From Sphingobacteriaceae bacterium (GTDB lineage Bacteria > Bacteroidota > Bacteroidia > Sphingobacteriales > Sphingobacteriaceae), in assembly GCA_029266635.1 (NCBI GenBank), contig JAQSWM010000002.1, positions 1 to 64,000 of the forward strand: DNA of 64,000 nt. Reading direction: 5' to 3'. Positions 46,474 to 53,206 of this stretch are shown here, piece by piece (positions within the stretch are counted from its first letter, which is position 1; the number at the start of each line of letters is the position of its first letter). Below the pieces are notes generated by a model. It was not told the DNA's origin and made no database searches. It worked only from the letters and a program-made list of their open reading frames with translations. The translations under genes were made by a program, and so were the position numbers.

Positions 46474-47322
46474 ATGATAGCAGTAGTTTACAGCGGATCC
46501 AGATATGCGAATTGGAAGCTTGCCGAAAAGGGCAAAGTGGTGGCCGACTTCAAAACCGAAGGCATCAATCCATATCTGAGCGATTCCGCCTCCATTGTAA
46601 ACCTGCTGAATAACACCAATGATTTGATCACCTACGCCGAGAAGATCAAGCGTATCTATTTTTTTGGTGCCGGGGCTTCATCGCGGCAACGCCAGGAAAT
46701 TGTCCATTCTGCTTTCACAGAGTTTTTCAGGTTTGGCAAAACGGTAGTTGAACACGATTTAAAAGCTGCCGCAATTGCAACCTGTGGCGATAATCCGGGC
46801 ATCGTAGGGATTTTGGGAAGCGGTTCTAACGCTGCTTTCTACACCGGAAAATCGGTAAAAGAGAATAACCACGGATTAGGTTTTATCCTGAATGATGAAG
46901 GTTCGGCTAACTGGCTCGGTCGACGCCTGCTGAAGGCCTATCTCACCGAAACAATGCCCACTTCTTTCCGGAATACCTTTCAGAAGAAGTTTACTTTAGA
47001 CAGGAAACAAATATTAGATAAAGTATACAAACAACCTCAACCCGTATTATTTTTGGCTTCCTTTTCCGAGTTCCTGCATGAGAATAGAAACCAGGATTAC
47101 GTGAGCGCCTTAGTAAAAGAAGGCTTCAGCCTGTACTTTGAAAATTATATAATGCCTCTGGCACAACAATACCCTGATGCTCCACTGCATTTTGCCGGCA
47201 CCGTAGCTTCGGGATTTGAAGATCTGCTCAAAGAAACAGCAGCGAGCCGCAGCCTGCAGATCCGGTCCATCGTAAAGGCGCCGCTCAACAGAGTGCTGAA
47301 TTATTATACGCATAAGAATTAA
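46474..47322 (+). CDS. Degenerate BadF/GlcNAc-kinase-like paralogue
   Basis: 282 residues, a gapless counterpart of the kinase at 43710-44567 over the first 100 residues (TEGINPYLSDSAS vs TEGYNPYFVDQAY; YFFGAGASS vs YYGAGVHN). The phosphate-1 motif DGGSTKT is replaced by YSGSRYA (Tyr6, Arg10, Tyr11, Ala12). The position of the catalytic Asp95 (VEHDLKAAA) and the second loop GILGSGSNAAF are kept. It may be a pseudokinase that binds sugar, or a kinase with altered nucleotide binding. It starts 1 bp after pfkA, so it is co-expressed with it. Confidence 0.85.
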   Translation: MIAVVYSGSRYANWKLAEKGKVVADFKTEGINPYLSDSASIVNLLNNTNDLITYAEKIKRIYFFGAGASSRQRQEIVHSAFTEFFRFGKTVVEHDLKAAAIATCGDNPGIVGILGSGSNAAFYTGKSVKENNHGLGFILNDEGSANWLGRRLLKAYLTETMPTSFRNTFQKKFTLDRKQILDKVYKQPQPVLFLASFSEFLHENRNQDYVSALVKEGFSLYFENYIMPLAQQYPDAPLHFAGTVASGFEDLLKETAASRSLQIRSIVKAPLNRVLNYYTHKN

Positions 47323-47340
47323 GCCAGGCTTAGGCACACA

Positions 47341-47370
47341 ATGTCATCCTGAGGCACTCGAAGGGTGGGT
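47341..47370. repeat. Dispersed GTCATCCTGAG-type repeat copy
   Basis: The sequence atgtcatcctgaggcactcg followed by aagggtgggt resembles the copy at 52772-52803 (atgtcatgctgag...tcgaagcat). Such short elements recur between genes in many bacteria. It lies in the gap before gapA. Confidence 0.5.
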
Positions 47371-47433
47371 TAAAAAACAAAGAATACTCCGAATCAACCC
47401 GGATGTTTATAGAAAAGAGAATTACAACATTAA

Positions 47434-48444
<1,011 letters not shown>

Positions 48445-48467
48445 TTCAAACAAACCTTACATAACAG

Positions 48468-48499
48468 AGCCTCGCTAAGAAATTAGTGGGGCTTTTTTG
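48468..48499 (+). terminator. Terminator after gapA
   Basis: An 11-bp stem with two G-T pairs (48468-48478 with 48483-48493), loop gaaa, followed by a run of T's. Confidence 0.85.
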
Positions 48500-48537
48500 T
48501 AATAAGGCTTATTGTAATCCCTGTGTTCGGCAGAGAA

Positions 48538-50090
48538 TCAGCTTACTGGTCGTTCAAACAATGGAGTCCAAGTCTTACTTTGTGCCCAGAGGATCGGCAA
48601 TGAGTTGTTTGGGATTGTGCGAGGGAAAACTACAAGAGACTGGCAATCACCAAAGCCGAGGGGATTTTTTTTGACCAAAGATGAACCGATACTATAGCAT
48701 TTGGCTCTGGCGGAATGCCTTTCTGCGGGAATAGTGAATATTTTCGACGATTCATCAAACGCCTTGTCTGAGGAGGTCAAAAGATCACATATGTGAACGG
48801 AGAAGTTGATTTTTTGCCGTTTCATCTTTGTTAAGATCACGTTTTTTGCCTCTTCAAAACCACAAACAACTCCGAGATGAAACTGAATATTTTCATTAGA
48901 GAAGAGGTTCGGGAATGTTTCTATCAGCTTCGTTAAGTTGGCCGTTACAGAAGTTCCGGTACCTAAGTAATCGTCGATAAATATTATTGAATGAATTTCG
49001 GTGTTGCTGGATAAAGCCCTCTCTAATCTTTCTGGTGCTAAAACATTTCGCTGATTGATTCTATTTTGATCTGCAAATAACTTAGCATATTCAGGGCCAC
49101 TTTTCGCAACAGAGTCTTCTAGATAGCTGACTAGGATATCTTTTCTTGTTAGGGCGTCCGGCTTAATTGTTCTAACAGTGCCGGCCTTTACAAAAGATTT
49201 TTTAATAATCTGAAAGATTTCATCCATCTTTTGCTTGATTTCGAAATCTGAATAAAAATGTAAGTGCTGAAGTAGTTTAAACATCAACCTTTGATTCCGG
49301 TTGTCTCCAAATTGTTCTAACCATGACCTCACTATATCTGTTGTTATCTCCGCTCCTCTATAGGTCTTCCACGACCGGGCTAAATCAACGATTTCCTGCG
49401 ATGTTACCTTTGCACCCTCCTCTTTAAGTTTTTCTTGGTCAAGTCTATCGCTTTCAACCAGTGTAGTTCTAAGTTTATCAACTCCTCCGTTTAAAAGCCA
49501 GTCTCTAAAAAAAGCCACTTTGAAGTCTAACTTGTTATCCTTTAAAATTAAAACATCCCGATCAATAAACTCATTGAGTGTTGATATAGCGGAAGTCTCT
49601 TGGAAGCCTGCAAGCACAGCATTATCTATGATGTCGTCATAGGGTGATATCCCTTTTTTCTTGAGAACATCTATTAAATGAATTAACATTTTTCGCCTAT
49701 TTGATGCAATTTCTTCTTCATTAACCAGAAGATCACGGATGCCATCTTTCCAAAAATGAGCAAATATCTGCTCACCTGTGTTGTTAATAGCCGCGTTAGT
49801 TGCCTCTCTCACTTCAGTTATACTAATAAAGCTATCTCTTTTGTTAATCATCAGAGTTAGTAACTCTTCACAGATCACCTTTGTAAAAAAGGGGTTGCCG
49901 CTAGTCTGATCATATAGGAAAGCAACCGCATCATTTGTGATTTCGAAAAGGTTTTCGATTGGTCTAGTTACTAAATCGGAGAAATCAGTCCAATTGGTTT
50001 TTTTATCAAAATAATCTACCCTAAAAGATCGAAATTTATTCACCTCTTGGCTTTGATCCCGCATAATGTATTCCATTCTTTCCCCCCCCA
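48538..50090 (-). pseudogene. 3' part of frameshifted ATPase-PRTase gene (lid, helical region and phosphoribosyltransferase domain)
   Basis: This frame continues the ATPase encoded at 50036-51730 after a one-base shift at the G8 run (50082-50089). It starts in GGERMEYIMRDQSQE, then the ATPase lid with the STAND/AAA-like phrase YDQTSGNPFFTKVICEELL, a helical/winged-helix stretch, and a C-terminal ~200-residue phosphoribosyltransferase fold. The PRPP-type loop is IIFIDDYLGTGTSV (around 48940-48985), and the end GFGDCQSLVVFPRTIPNN with ILWAQSKTWTPLFERP matches, as I recall, the PRTase-CE domain linked to biological conflict systems. With one G removed the whole gene is an unbroken 1063-residue ORF (48538-51730). 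It is convergent to gapA. Confidence 0.8.
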
Positions 50091-51730
50091 ACAAGCAGAA
50101 AGCCATATGGTCCTTTGTTGCTGATCGCTCTAATAGTTTCAAAGAATGAGTCGCCGATCTGTCCCTTTTGGTACATTTCCGCCGGAATTTTATCGAATTC
50201 ATCAAGTATAATCACAATTTTACATTCAGGCAAGATTGCGGAAACCTGCTCTAAATATTCTGTAATAGGGCTTAATGCGCCTGCGAACTCAGGGATAGGG
50301 AGTGTTTTTAATCGGGAATCGAAGTTTTGAATTTTTCGACAAATATTGTTGGCAAGTTGGTTTATAGTTTTATCGGAGTTAGGATTTTTGAAATCTCCTG
50401 TCTCTTGATAGAAAAATATCAAATTGCGAGGAAGTTTTTTTTCTAGTTTGGTCTTTAGAGTCTTTACGATAGAGCTCTTCCCAACCCTGCGTTGACCGTA
50501 AATGTATGCCGAACCAACCTTCTTTCCCTCAATTCTGGAAGCCAATAAGTTGAGAATTTCCCGTCTACCAATTAGTTCATTTTCTGTTTCAACTGCTTCG
50601 GTGCTGTAGATTTCATTCGGAATTAGGTTGTCCCAGTCAAGCTTATTCTTTTGTCCGTGAAGTATCAACTCGAAATCCTCACTAGATGTGCTCCCATCAA
50701 AGTTCGTCCAAGCAACGTTAAGCTCTACAATAGTGTCAGGTGCTGGCTTTAGCATTTTGCAGGTGAAGTCTATTTGAGACTCCTCTAAGCCGACAGTTCC
50801 AATTACTTTGTCTTTTTCAATCTCCGACTCGCTAGTAAATTCTTTAATCGTTATTCTGGTATTGTAGGCGTATCCAGTTCCATTGTTTTTTATGACAAAA
50901 GAAATCTTAAATTCAGTTAGTGTTTGTCCAAACGGGTATTTTTTCGTTAACCCTAAAATTTCTAAAGAAGCGGGCTTACTATAGGGTGAACTTTCGAAAT
51001 CTCTGTTGAGCACAAGCTTAATTTTTTGGAAGCACTTTGCAATAAATCCATCACTATAAGCCGTTCCAAATTCGTTTGCCTCATTTATCAATCGATCTAG
51101 ATCCGCAATTAACGTGGAGTAAGTTTGAGTTTTGTGCTCTTTAGAGGAGTTTATATAATTTTTTGCAGCTGAGAAAACGTTATCTATCTTTAAATTTATA
51201 TCAAAAGGCAAAAAAGGATGGATAAAGACTTTTGCGTTTATCGAACGTATGGCGGCTAGAAAACTTTTCTTAAAATCTTCTAATTGCGTTAAGTTCAGTA
51301 TCTCAAAATTTATAAGGCTTGAAATTTTTTCCTCCAGTCCGCTGATGAAGTCCTTTACTTTATTGACTTTTATATAACTCTGATCGCTTTGTTTTATGTT
51401 TAAGTCCTTAAATCGGCGGTCACTGAGATACACTTCCTCTATCAACTTTAACGATTGCCGTTGGAAATCTGGGAACTCGATAAACAAACTCTCATCAGAG
51501 CTCCACAACCTTAAGAGACATACGACTATAAATTCTTTTTTGGCTGAAGAGTTATGATCATCGAAGATTGGATTTTTGTGGTGTCTGTTGAGTTCCAATC
51601 CCTTTTCTTCGATAATGTAATTACATAATTTTTTGACGGCTGCTTTTTTCTCGGCACTGCTTAACTTTGCAGAACCATTTTTTAGTTGCAGAATAATTTT
51701 GTCGATCTCAAGAAGGTTGCTATTTCTCAT
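50036..51730 (-). pseudogene. 5' part of frameshifted ATPase-PRTase gene (helical, CARDB-like and P-loop NTPase domains)
   Basis: 564 residues in this frame. Residues 1-~230 are helical without known motif; ~255-360 look like a CARDB/Ig-type beta sandwich (KYPFGQTLTEFKISFVIKNN, TIVELNVAWTNFDG); ~385-548 are a P-loop NTPase: ENELIGRREILNLLASRI, Walker A IYGQRRVGKSS (412-419) and Walker B IVIILDEFDKI (~505-512). Frame is lost in GFLLVGGGKNG; the last 16 residues are out-of-frame. No signal or TM segment. The gene is AT-richer than its neighbours and has no operon partner, suggesting an accessory insertion. It may be phase-variable, decayed, or a homopolymer sequencing error. Confidence 0.8.
50082..50089. 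repeat. Homopolymer C8/G8 tract at the frameshift
   Basis: Eight C on the + strand (eight G in the coding strand). Seven G would give LVGGERMEYIM and restore the frame between the two halves of the ATPase-PRTase gene. Such tracts are hot spots both for slipped-strand phase variation and for sequencing or assembly error. Confidence 0.9.
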
Positions 51731-51870
51731 TGGCTACATTTATATCGTAAATATAAAAATTGCCGATGCAATTATCTAGCGAAATCGCGATTGTAATGGC
51801 ATTCTGCCTACACCCGATTGGGACGCAACAAAAAAGTCCCATTCTTCATCTTCACGTCATGTTGGCGAAA

Positions 51871-51878
51871 TAGCTTTG
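51871..51878 (+). promoter_or_regulatory. -7 promoter box of DUF4382 lipoprotein
   Basis: TAGCTTTG, a perfect TAnnTTTG, 22 bp before the ATG at 51901. No matching -33 box seen. Confidence 0.4.
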
Positions 51879-51900
51879 TTACGTTACTAATTCTACCGAC

Positions 51901-52659
51901 ATGAAAAAACTTTTTATAATCCCCGCACTGGCTTTGCTGGCCCTGTTTTCATCGTGTGAAAACGACAGCAAAAGCTCTTTAACCCGCGTTAACATAAAGA
52001 TGACTGATGGCCCCGGCTCTTACGACGCACTTTTGATCAACGTTAAAGAAGTCCACGTGATCACCTCCGAAGGCGAGAGCGTGCTGCCCGTCAACTCAGG
52101 TACGTTCGATATTTTGAAATTCCGTATGGGCAAAGACACTTTGCTCGCTTCGCAGGATATTCCCGCAGGCAAGCTCCAGGAAATCCGCCTCGTGCTGAAT
52201 GACGGCAATAAGGTGGTTGTAGGTGGTGTTCCGTACAATCTTACTACCCCAAGCGCACAATCATCCGGACTGAAATTAAAAATTAATGACGACCTGAGCA
52301 GCGGCATTGAGTACACGCTGACCCTCGATTTTGACGCAGCTAAATCTATCGTGCAAACCGGAAACGGAAAATACATTTTAAAACCTGTAATCAGGGCTAT
52401 CCCGAATGCTGTTTCGGGAGCCTTGGCGGGCACAGTGGCGCCTGCAGCATCGGCAGCTAAAGTGTACGCAATTGTTGGCACTGATACTACCGGCGCAATT
52501 GCCGACAGCACAGGCAAGTTCTTTTTGTCGGGAATGCAGGCGGGCACCTACAAAATTGATATTGTACCTCAAAGCCCTTATCAGCCTAAGAGCTTGTTGA
52601 GTGTACAAGTAAATACAGGTTCAGTTACGAACCTGGGCACCATTACTGTTGCTCCATAA
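51901..52659 (+). CDS. DUF4382 domain lipoprotein
   Basis: 252 residues with lipobox Cys in ALFSSCENDS. Residues ~25-165 match DUF4382 (VNIKMTDGPGSYDALLINVK, ILKFRMGKDTLLASQDIPAG), a beta-sandwich of unknown role. A second CarboxypepD_reg-like beta domain follows (~170-252; GKFFLSGMQAGTYKIDIVPQ). Probably surface or periplasmic. Ends before a strong terminator. Confidence 0.88.
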   Translation: MKKLFIIPALALLALFSSCENDSKSSLTRVNIKMTDGPGSYDALLINVKEVHVITSEGESVLPVNSGTFDILKFRMGKDTLLASQDIPAGKLQEIRLVLNDGNKVVVGGVPYNLTTPSAQSSGLKLKINDDLSSGIEYTLTLDFDAAKSIVQTGNGKYILKPVIRAIPNAVSGALAGTVAPAASAAKVYAIVGTDTTGAIADSTGKFFLSGMQAGTYKIDIVPQSPYQPKSLLSVQVNTGSVTNLGTITVAP

Positions 52660-52677
52660 TGTTTTGGTGGTTTGATG

Positions 52678-52713
52678 GCCCTGCCGGTTGGTACCCGACA
52701 GGGCTTTTTTGTT
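52678..52713 (+). terminator. Terminator after DUF4382 gene
   Basis: Stem of 6 plus 3 bp with one A-C mismatch (52678-52687 with 52695-52704) followed by TTTTTT. Confidence 0.85.
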
Positions 52714-52719
52714 TTAAGC

Positions 52720-52803
52720 GTCATTCCGCACAAATGCAGAAGAGATTCCTGCTTTCGCAGAAATGACTAAAATGTCATGCTGAGCCTGTCGAAGCATCCA
52801 CCC
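52720..52803. repeat. Composite dispersed repeat with palindromic ends
   Basis: gtcattccgcacaaa (52720-52734) is an inverted relative of tttcgcagaaatgac (52753-52767), forming a hairpin; it is joined to atgtcatgctgagcctgtcg (from 52772), which also resembles the copy at 47341. The element runs into the DUF2452 gene and supplies its stop codon. Confidence 0.6.
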
Positions 52804-53206
52804 TCGTCCACTTATGATCCGTATCTTGCTTAAAAGAACCTAAATATTCCTGCTTCCAGGTATTGGGCGGCACCATTGATAAGAACAGTGAGCCATCGGC
52901 TTTGCGGTAGAGGTGATAGGTCTCGCCCATTACGGGGATAAAGTTGTATTTGGAAGAGTAAACCAGCTCGTTAATGTTCACCTCGTTCACCAGCCGGTCA
53001 AACTCTGCTTTGAACTCTTCAAATTTGGTCTTGAAATTCTTGTTTGCGACTTCGGCATTCGCATGTTTCCAACCGCTGATGTTTTCAATGTTAATTGCGG
53101 GAGCGCTCACATTGCTGCCATAGCTCAGCCCTTTCTGGTAATAACCTTTCTCCTTATCCCAAACAACAAGGTCGGGCTTATCCTGCTTTTCTTTTTCTTC
53201 GTCCAT
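52775..53206 (-). CDS. DUF2452 domain protein
   Basis: 143 residues, no signal or TM. The pattern GLSYGSNVSAPAI and FIPVMGETYHLYRKADGSLF, then WKQEYLGSF, fits DUF2452 as I know it; the function is unknown. The last residues (VDASTGSA) and the stop are encoded by the dispersed repeat at 52772-52803, so the native C-terminus may have been altered. Stands alone. Confidence 0.75.
   Translation of the reverse strand: MDEEKEKQDKPDLVVWDKEKGYYQKGLSYGSNVSAPAINIENISGWKHANAEVANKNFKTKFEEFKAEFDRLVNEVNINELVYSSKYNFIPVMGETYHLYRKADGSLFLSMVPPNTWKQEYLGSFKQDTDHKWTRVDASTGSA

Follow-up and report, generated by a model that had tools for sequence, protein, structure and literature searches.

A frameshifted gene joining a predicted ORC/Cdc6-type ATPase to a PRTase-CE domain: a candidate single-chain anti-invader system

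Between gapA and a lipoprotein gene, the 64,000-nucleotide stretch of DNA analysed here (the window) carries an AT-rich gene that is read in two overlapping frames. This raises the question whether the gene encodes a single protein and whether such a protein could serve in defence. A preliminary description of the locus had proposed a P-loop ATPase fused to a phosphoribosyltransferase domain of the PRTase-CE type, as part of a candidate conflict system. We consider it probable that the gene is a horizontally acquired anti-invader system made of a single polypeptide, which would combine a sensor region, an ORC/STAND-type ATP switch and a PRTase effector.

The whole gene extends from 51730 to 48538 on the minus strand (the strand of all gene parts given below) and comprises about 1063 codons plus a stop codon, interrupted by one frameshift. 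Its upstream frame (51730..50036) encodes 564 amino acids and overlaps the downstream frame (50205..48538), which encodes 555; the two frames are joined at GTTGGGGGGGGAAAG. The frameshift is located in a run of eight G (50082..50089), after the sensor-1 strand (FLLVGG). Four intact full-length relatives (1060–1070 amino acids) read LVGGE or LIGGE across this point without a break, and the window therefore contains one gene with a single lesion. No further stop or shift was found over the approximately 1063 codons of the gene, and no second copy was found in its own genome. The overlapping frames and the length of the intact relatives thus confirm the frame-corrected protein of 1063 residues given in the preliminary description, and all motifs quoted there were recovered (GQRRVGKSS, IVIILDEFD, SGNPFF, FIDDYLGTGTS and GFGDCQSLVVFP).

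The C-terminal domain (48550..49332) matches the PRTase-CE family PF24390 over the full profile (positions 1–253 of 253) with 172 bits, compared with a gathering cut-off of 27, and an E-value of 2.7e-50. Five PADLOC models for the PRTase of type III-A retrons match the C-terminus as well (best E 3.2e-42). An AlphaFold2 model of this domain, built from the window sequence with nine relatives in the alignment, reached a mean pLDDT of 89.6. Its top Foldseek matches were orotate, xanthine-guanine-hypoxanthine and uracil phosphoribosyltransferases. The rows returned by VIA-align were PRPP synthetases, PyrR and PRTases for uracil, orotate and purines; the best of them aligned 143 residues at 3.2 Å with Z 10.9. 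The motif FIDDYLGTGTS (48949..48981), in which the DD pair and the last G are invariant across all intact fusions, is placed in the model at the strand 143–151 and the helix starting at residue 155; in type I PRTases, this strand-loop-helix position is the PRPP-binding site. Further towards the end of the protein lie PNNSLPILW (48586..48612), a C-terminal motif of PRTase-CE with a core that is invariant in the homologue alignment, and the end motif W.PLFER (48550..48570), which is invariant across all intact fusions. The pattern P(N/D)N(S/T)LP gave 15 matches, leading to eight PRTase-CE loci confirmed by tblastn. Judged by profile and model, the C-terminus is a PRTase-CE domain with a type I PRTase fold and an intact acidic pair in the PRPP loop, for which phosphoribosyl transfer is the predicted activity.

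The middle of the protein contains an AAA+/STAND ATPase core with the start of the lid (approximately residues 385–624; 49858..50578), which matches AAA_22 (9e-9) and ATPase_2 (1.8e-6) in Pfam; ATPase_2 is above its cut-off in three homologues (L050, L084 and L085). Since the only full-length model is an AlphaFold2 model of the homologue L050 and not of the window protein, structural comparison of the ATPase refers to that homologue: its ATPase part aligns with Aeropyrum ORC2 (1w5t; Z 15.1, 165 residues, 2.9 Å), and the NB domains of plant NLR resistosomes align lower (Z 11–12). The full-length model has a pLDDT of 55, and the domain arrangement and oligomerisation are therefore without structural support. 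The Walker A motif GQRRVGKSS (50471..50497) follows a GQ(K/R)RVGK(S/T)S pattern in six homologues, the DEFD of the Walker B motif VIILDEFD (50192..50215) is invariant in the same number, and the GNPFF motif of the lid (49885..49899) appears as invariant GNP(F/Y) in the homologues. Together with the sensor-1 strand, these elements are kept in six of six homologues compared. PF24389, the ORC-CDC6-like family, gave no Pfam match in the window protein. The motifs and the homologue's fold indicate that the middle region is an ATPase of the ORC/Cdc6-type AAA+ (STAND-like) group with intact Walker A and B motifs. Between it and the PRTase domain, the secondary structure of the L050 model suggests a helical or winged-helix-like linker (approximately residues 625–770; 49420..49857): helices and two strands are predicted after the lid at low confidence, and some ORC chains align up to residue 756 with poor rmsd.

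The N-terminal part is defined less sharply. An all-helical region (approximately residues 1–245; 50996..51730), which we propose as the sensor and protomer-contact part, has no Pfam match; its helices, also listed in the preliminary description, are present in the L050 model at low to moderate pLDDT. It is followed by a β-sandwich of the Ig/CARDB-like type (approximately residues 250–360; 50651..50983). The sandwich itself, for which eight strands are predicted in the L050 model, agrees with the earlier proposal, but its CARDB label holds up poorly: the best CARDB match in the window has an E-value of 0.14 and 12.8 bits (Pfam cut-off 22.7), and four relatives gave no CARDB match in Pfam. The two central assignments fared better. 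The profile searches and structural comparisons that the preliminary description had put forward as checks returned both a PRTase hit (PF24390, with a PRTase fold in Foldseek and VIA-align) and a STAND/AAA hit (AAA_22, with the ORC match of the L050 ATPase).

The composition and the site of the gene are consistent with acquisition from elsewhere. The gene has a G+C content of 37.8% and the remainder of the window one of 44.6%; for the homologue L102 the values are 51.4% in the gene and 66.7% in the flanks, and in six of six hosts the gene lies below its flanks. The neighbours are gapA (47446-48444, plus strand) and a DUF4382 lipoprotein gene (51901-52659, plus strand), the position already given in the preliminary description. 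The nine relatives inspected at gapA share the order of a BadF-type kinase and then gapA, and the content downstream of gapA varies among many of them. None of these nine sampled relatives from the same family has the fusion gene after gapA. Where both could be read in relatives, DUF4382 was located elsewhere than gapA; because the two genes are not adjacent in the relatives inspected, this comparison does not prove an empty site. These observations fit the insertion of one gene at a variable spot after gapA, in line with the AT-rich, single-gene cargo described before. The 64,000-nucleotide window contains no tRNA that could provide an attachment site. Nor is there a convincing flanking repeat at the ends of the gene: an imperfect inverted repeat of 14 nucleotides roughly flanks it (48487-48500 and 51828-51841; 13 of 14 positions complementary, with a T run), one arm of which partly coincides with the likely gapA terminator.

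The fusion is rare. Four intact full-length homologues were found (L050, L084, L085 and L102; 24–40% identity). Among 395 genomes of the window's phylum, the fusion is present in the window genome and two others, one of them (G350) with a degenerate copy; 197 genomes of another family contributed one additional intact copy, and 398 genomes of the order of that family no further fusion. A pattern scan of genome contigs with the N-terminal part detected no close relatives, tblastn against phage and plasmid records found no fusion but matches to the PRTase domain alone (22–31% identity, seven plasmids), and searching the PDB sequences by means of the family profile gave nothing convincing. In the degenerate copy (L036:124-3213, minus strand), the PRPP-loop and KSG residues are lost and the ATPase is retained; since the sequence stops near the contig end, a pseudogene, a truncation or an inactive variant are all possible.

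The neighbourhoods of the homologues link the fusion family to defence islands and mobile elements. L050, from a Melioribacteraceae MAG, is flanked by the type I restriction-modification (R-M) genes HsdR and HsdS, an AbiZ-like DUF6161 gene, Mrr (PDC-S02) and a HipA-like kinase. Two homologues are located on viral contigs: L102 adjoins a tyrosine integrase gene (PHROG integrase, E 2.2e-30), and L084 follows tail, endolysin and spanin genes. This link does not extend to the window copy and to L085, which is 39% identical to the window protein and lies near ruvA (neighbour read by eye). Of the five copies that are intact or frameshifted, these two have housekeeping surroundings in which no other defence gene was seen nearby, and no phage genes were found near either. 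The homologues are thus found in a restriction-modification island and prophage contigs as well as in housekeeping contexts, where the preliminary description would have been contradicted by housekeeping contexts throughout.

For the window protein we infer a role in defence and a substrate, and for the proposed system also the sensing, the assembly and the abortive outcome, as follows. The helical N-terminus and the β-sandwich would supply the sensor and the contact surfaces. The ORC/Cdc6-type (STAND-like) AAA+ ATPase would serve as an ATP-gated switch that assembles upon a signal from an invader; this signal might be foreign nucleic acid, since ORC relatives bind DNA. Assembly of the ATPase would turn on the C-terminal PRTase-CE domain, which might use PRPP, or reverse phosphoribosyl transfer, on a base or nucleotide, and its action would halt growth or phage replication. 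Our best reading is that the window gene encodes a rare form of PRTase-CE defence in which the gating ATPase is part of the same chain. Only tentatively do we suggest that it might represent an undescribed class of one-protein receptors, in which the ORC/Cdc6-like ATPase would detect invader nucleic acid and directly activate the fused PRTase, and which prophages would have spread between distant phyla.

Other functions are conceivable as well. The PRTase-like domain might be non-catalytic and act as a nucleotide or PRPP sensor, similar to PyrR, while the ATPase or the N-terminus would do the killing or blocking. PyrR proteins are indeed among the structural matches of the PRTase model, and L036 (G350) has kept its ATPase without the DD..G.G loop and the KSG motif. 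However, the L036 sequence ends near the contig end, and five of the six fusions have kept the DD, KSG and C-terminal motifs at 22–42% pairwise identity. Furthermore, PRTase-CE is common to very different sensors (reverse transcriptase, ORC/CARF and NADAR) and is the constant part across them, as expected of an effector; we regard a PyrR-like role as unlikely. It might also be that the gene is equipment of a prophage or mobile element, serving superinfection exclusion or lysogeny maintenance and not host defence, of which the window genome would have kept a remnant. The location of two homologues at prophage edges (one on the integrase side, one after the lysis cassette) would agree with this, but the window copy and L085 have no phage genes nearby, and L050 lies inside a type I R-M island. 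Moreover, prophages commonly carry defence genes (PMC9122126), and being cargo of a prophage does not exclude a role in host defence. Such equipment appears to us an improbable explanation too, and we retain the reading as single-chain, ATPase-gated defence.

For the window copy itself, the origin of the lesion has to be considered as well. In the present assembly this copy is probably inactive, since the frameshift cuts the chain within the AAA+ core of the ATPase. As the origin of the lesion, a sequencing error appears about as likely as a true mutation of recent date. That an assembly error alone accounts for the frameshift and that the gene is whole in the organism is a serious possibility, if somewhat short of even: the lesion is of the homopolymer type, all motifs are intact, and no second lesion interrupts the approximately 1063 codons. 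The 3.6 Mb assembly contains six G/C runs of at least 8 nucleotides, however, and the one in the window is the only run that breaks a frame. The other five (8–10 nucleotides; C1:528516-528525, C1:32970-32978, C10:25220-25228, C6:1331-1338 and C13:107615-107622) all lie within intact open frames, and the assembly is therefore not generally wrong at such runs. The exceptional position of this run would also suit a contingency tract, in which slippage switches the gene reversibly on and off (phase variation) or translational frameshifting rescues the product; in addition, the in-frame ATG of the downstream part is preceded by a purine-rich run. We consider this very improbable, since the relatives encode the Gly-Gly at this position as GGTGGT, GGTGGA or GGGGGT and lack the G run, runs of such length are scarcer than expected from composition alone, and the break sits within the AAA+ core. 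A conserved contingency tract was rejected because the Gly-Gly codons of the relatives differ and the G run is not kept; a phase switch at the run would be possible, with conservation lending it no support.

PRTase-CE, which a 2020 paper in the Journal of Bacteriology is said to have probably named or defined, also occurs in other settings. Among the PRTase-CE loci of the phylum that were read, six adjoin a retron reverse transcriptase (assigned by eye), and others, L037 among them, adjoin an ORC-CDC6-like ATPase and a CARF protein. In five genomes of the phylum (L038, L039, L040, L041 and L042), PRTase-CE is located next to a NADAR-type gene as a recurrent pair; NADAR was confirmed by Pfam for L038 and assigned by resemblance for L039 to L042. 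This pair may give a hint at the chemistry. In a 911-residue protein (L035:7128-9860, minus strand), which is another single-chain architecture, PRTase-CE is joined to an N-terminus that looks HD-like by eye. A 569-residue protein (L106:829-2535, plus strand), whose gene adjoins phage tail-type genes, contains two PRTase-CE stretches according to Pfam and is perhaps a tandem PRTase-CE. Four IMG/VR contigs (L104, L105, L107 and L108) carry rows of a DNA methyltransferase, PRTase-CE, an ORC-CDC6-like ATPase and a gene resembling CARF; an upstream position of the methyltransferase is not common to all four, and Pfam identities are available for L104 and partly for L108.

PRTase effectors are found in retrons, in DprA-PRTase systems and in ORC/CARF loci, and their mode of action is described as unknown (PMC9122126). 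A switch and an effector in one chain would offer the simplest setting for asking how the PRTase acts and how its ATPase activates it. Among known systems, the type III-A retrons supply the best PADLOC match to the PRTase domain (E 3.2e-42), with a similar PRPP loop and a PNN.LPI.W end motif. The window protein differs from them by a fused ATPase in the place where the retron has RT-DNA; no reverse transcriptase or winged-helix partner was found among the neighbours of the gene, and positions 47000-53000 gave no Rfam match to a retron or other RNA. The combination of DprA and a PRTase confers on E. coli protection against T7 and lambda (PMC9122126). In this system of P2-like phages, carried at a phage hotspot, a PRTase is likewise the presumed effector, accompanied by a separate sensing protein (PMC9122126); DprA is encoded by a gene of its own and is no ATPase switch, unlike the ATPase of the fusion. 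The PRTase domain is also similar to the DS-32 phosphoribosyltransferase-like anti-phage protein (NCBIfam NF053875; E 8.5e-10), the name of which marks it as anti-phage. With 38.3 bits against an equivalog cut-off of 250 for DS32_1_antiphage, the domain is therefore a distant relative of DS-32 and no member.

In its layout, the window protein can be compared with the STAND/NLR single-chain immune receptors (resistosomes), which likewise have a STAND-like NTPase and an effector in one chain; in the window protein, the effector is a PRTase located at the C-terminus, and a repeat sensor (TPR, LRR or WD40) was not found. Avs, a STAND-type single-chain immune receptor with an NTPase and an effector, is comparable in this respect. 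The loci of PRTase-CE, ORC-CDC6-like (PF24389) and CARF genes resemble the window protein in combining an ATPase of the ORC-Cdc6 type with PRTase-CE as the effector: at L104, the genes for N6_N4_Mtase, PRTase-CE and the ORC-CDC6-like ATPase follow one another, and L037 contains PRTase-CE, ORC-CDC6-like and CARF6 genes (Pfam and PADLOC). In these loci, ATPase and PRTase are on separate genes with a CARF partner, often together with a DNA methyltransferase. The window protein, in contrast, is a single chain with AAA_22/ATPase_2 instead of PF24389 and with an added sandwich and helical N-terminus, and its gene is flanked by gapA and DUF4382, with neither a CARF nor a PF24389 gene. The comparison across these contexts argues that PRTase-CE is a common effector plugged onto different sensors. 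The combination of an ORC-Cdc6-type ATPase with PRTase-CE thus already exists in the form of separate genes, and the window gene unites a related pair within a single chain.
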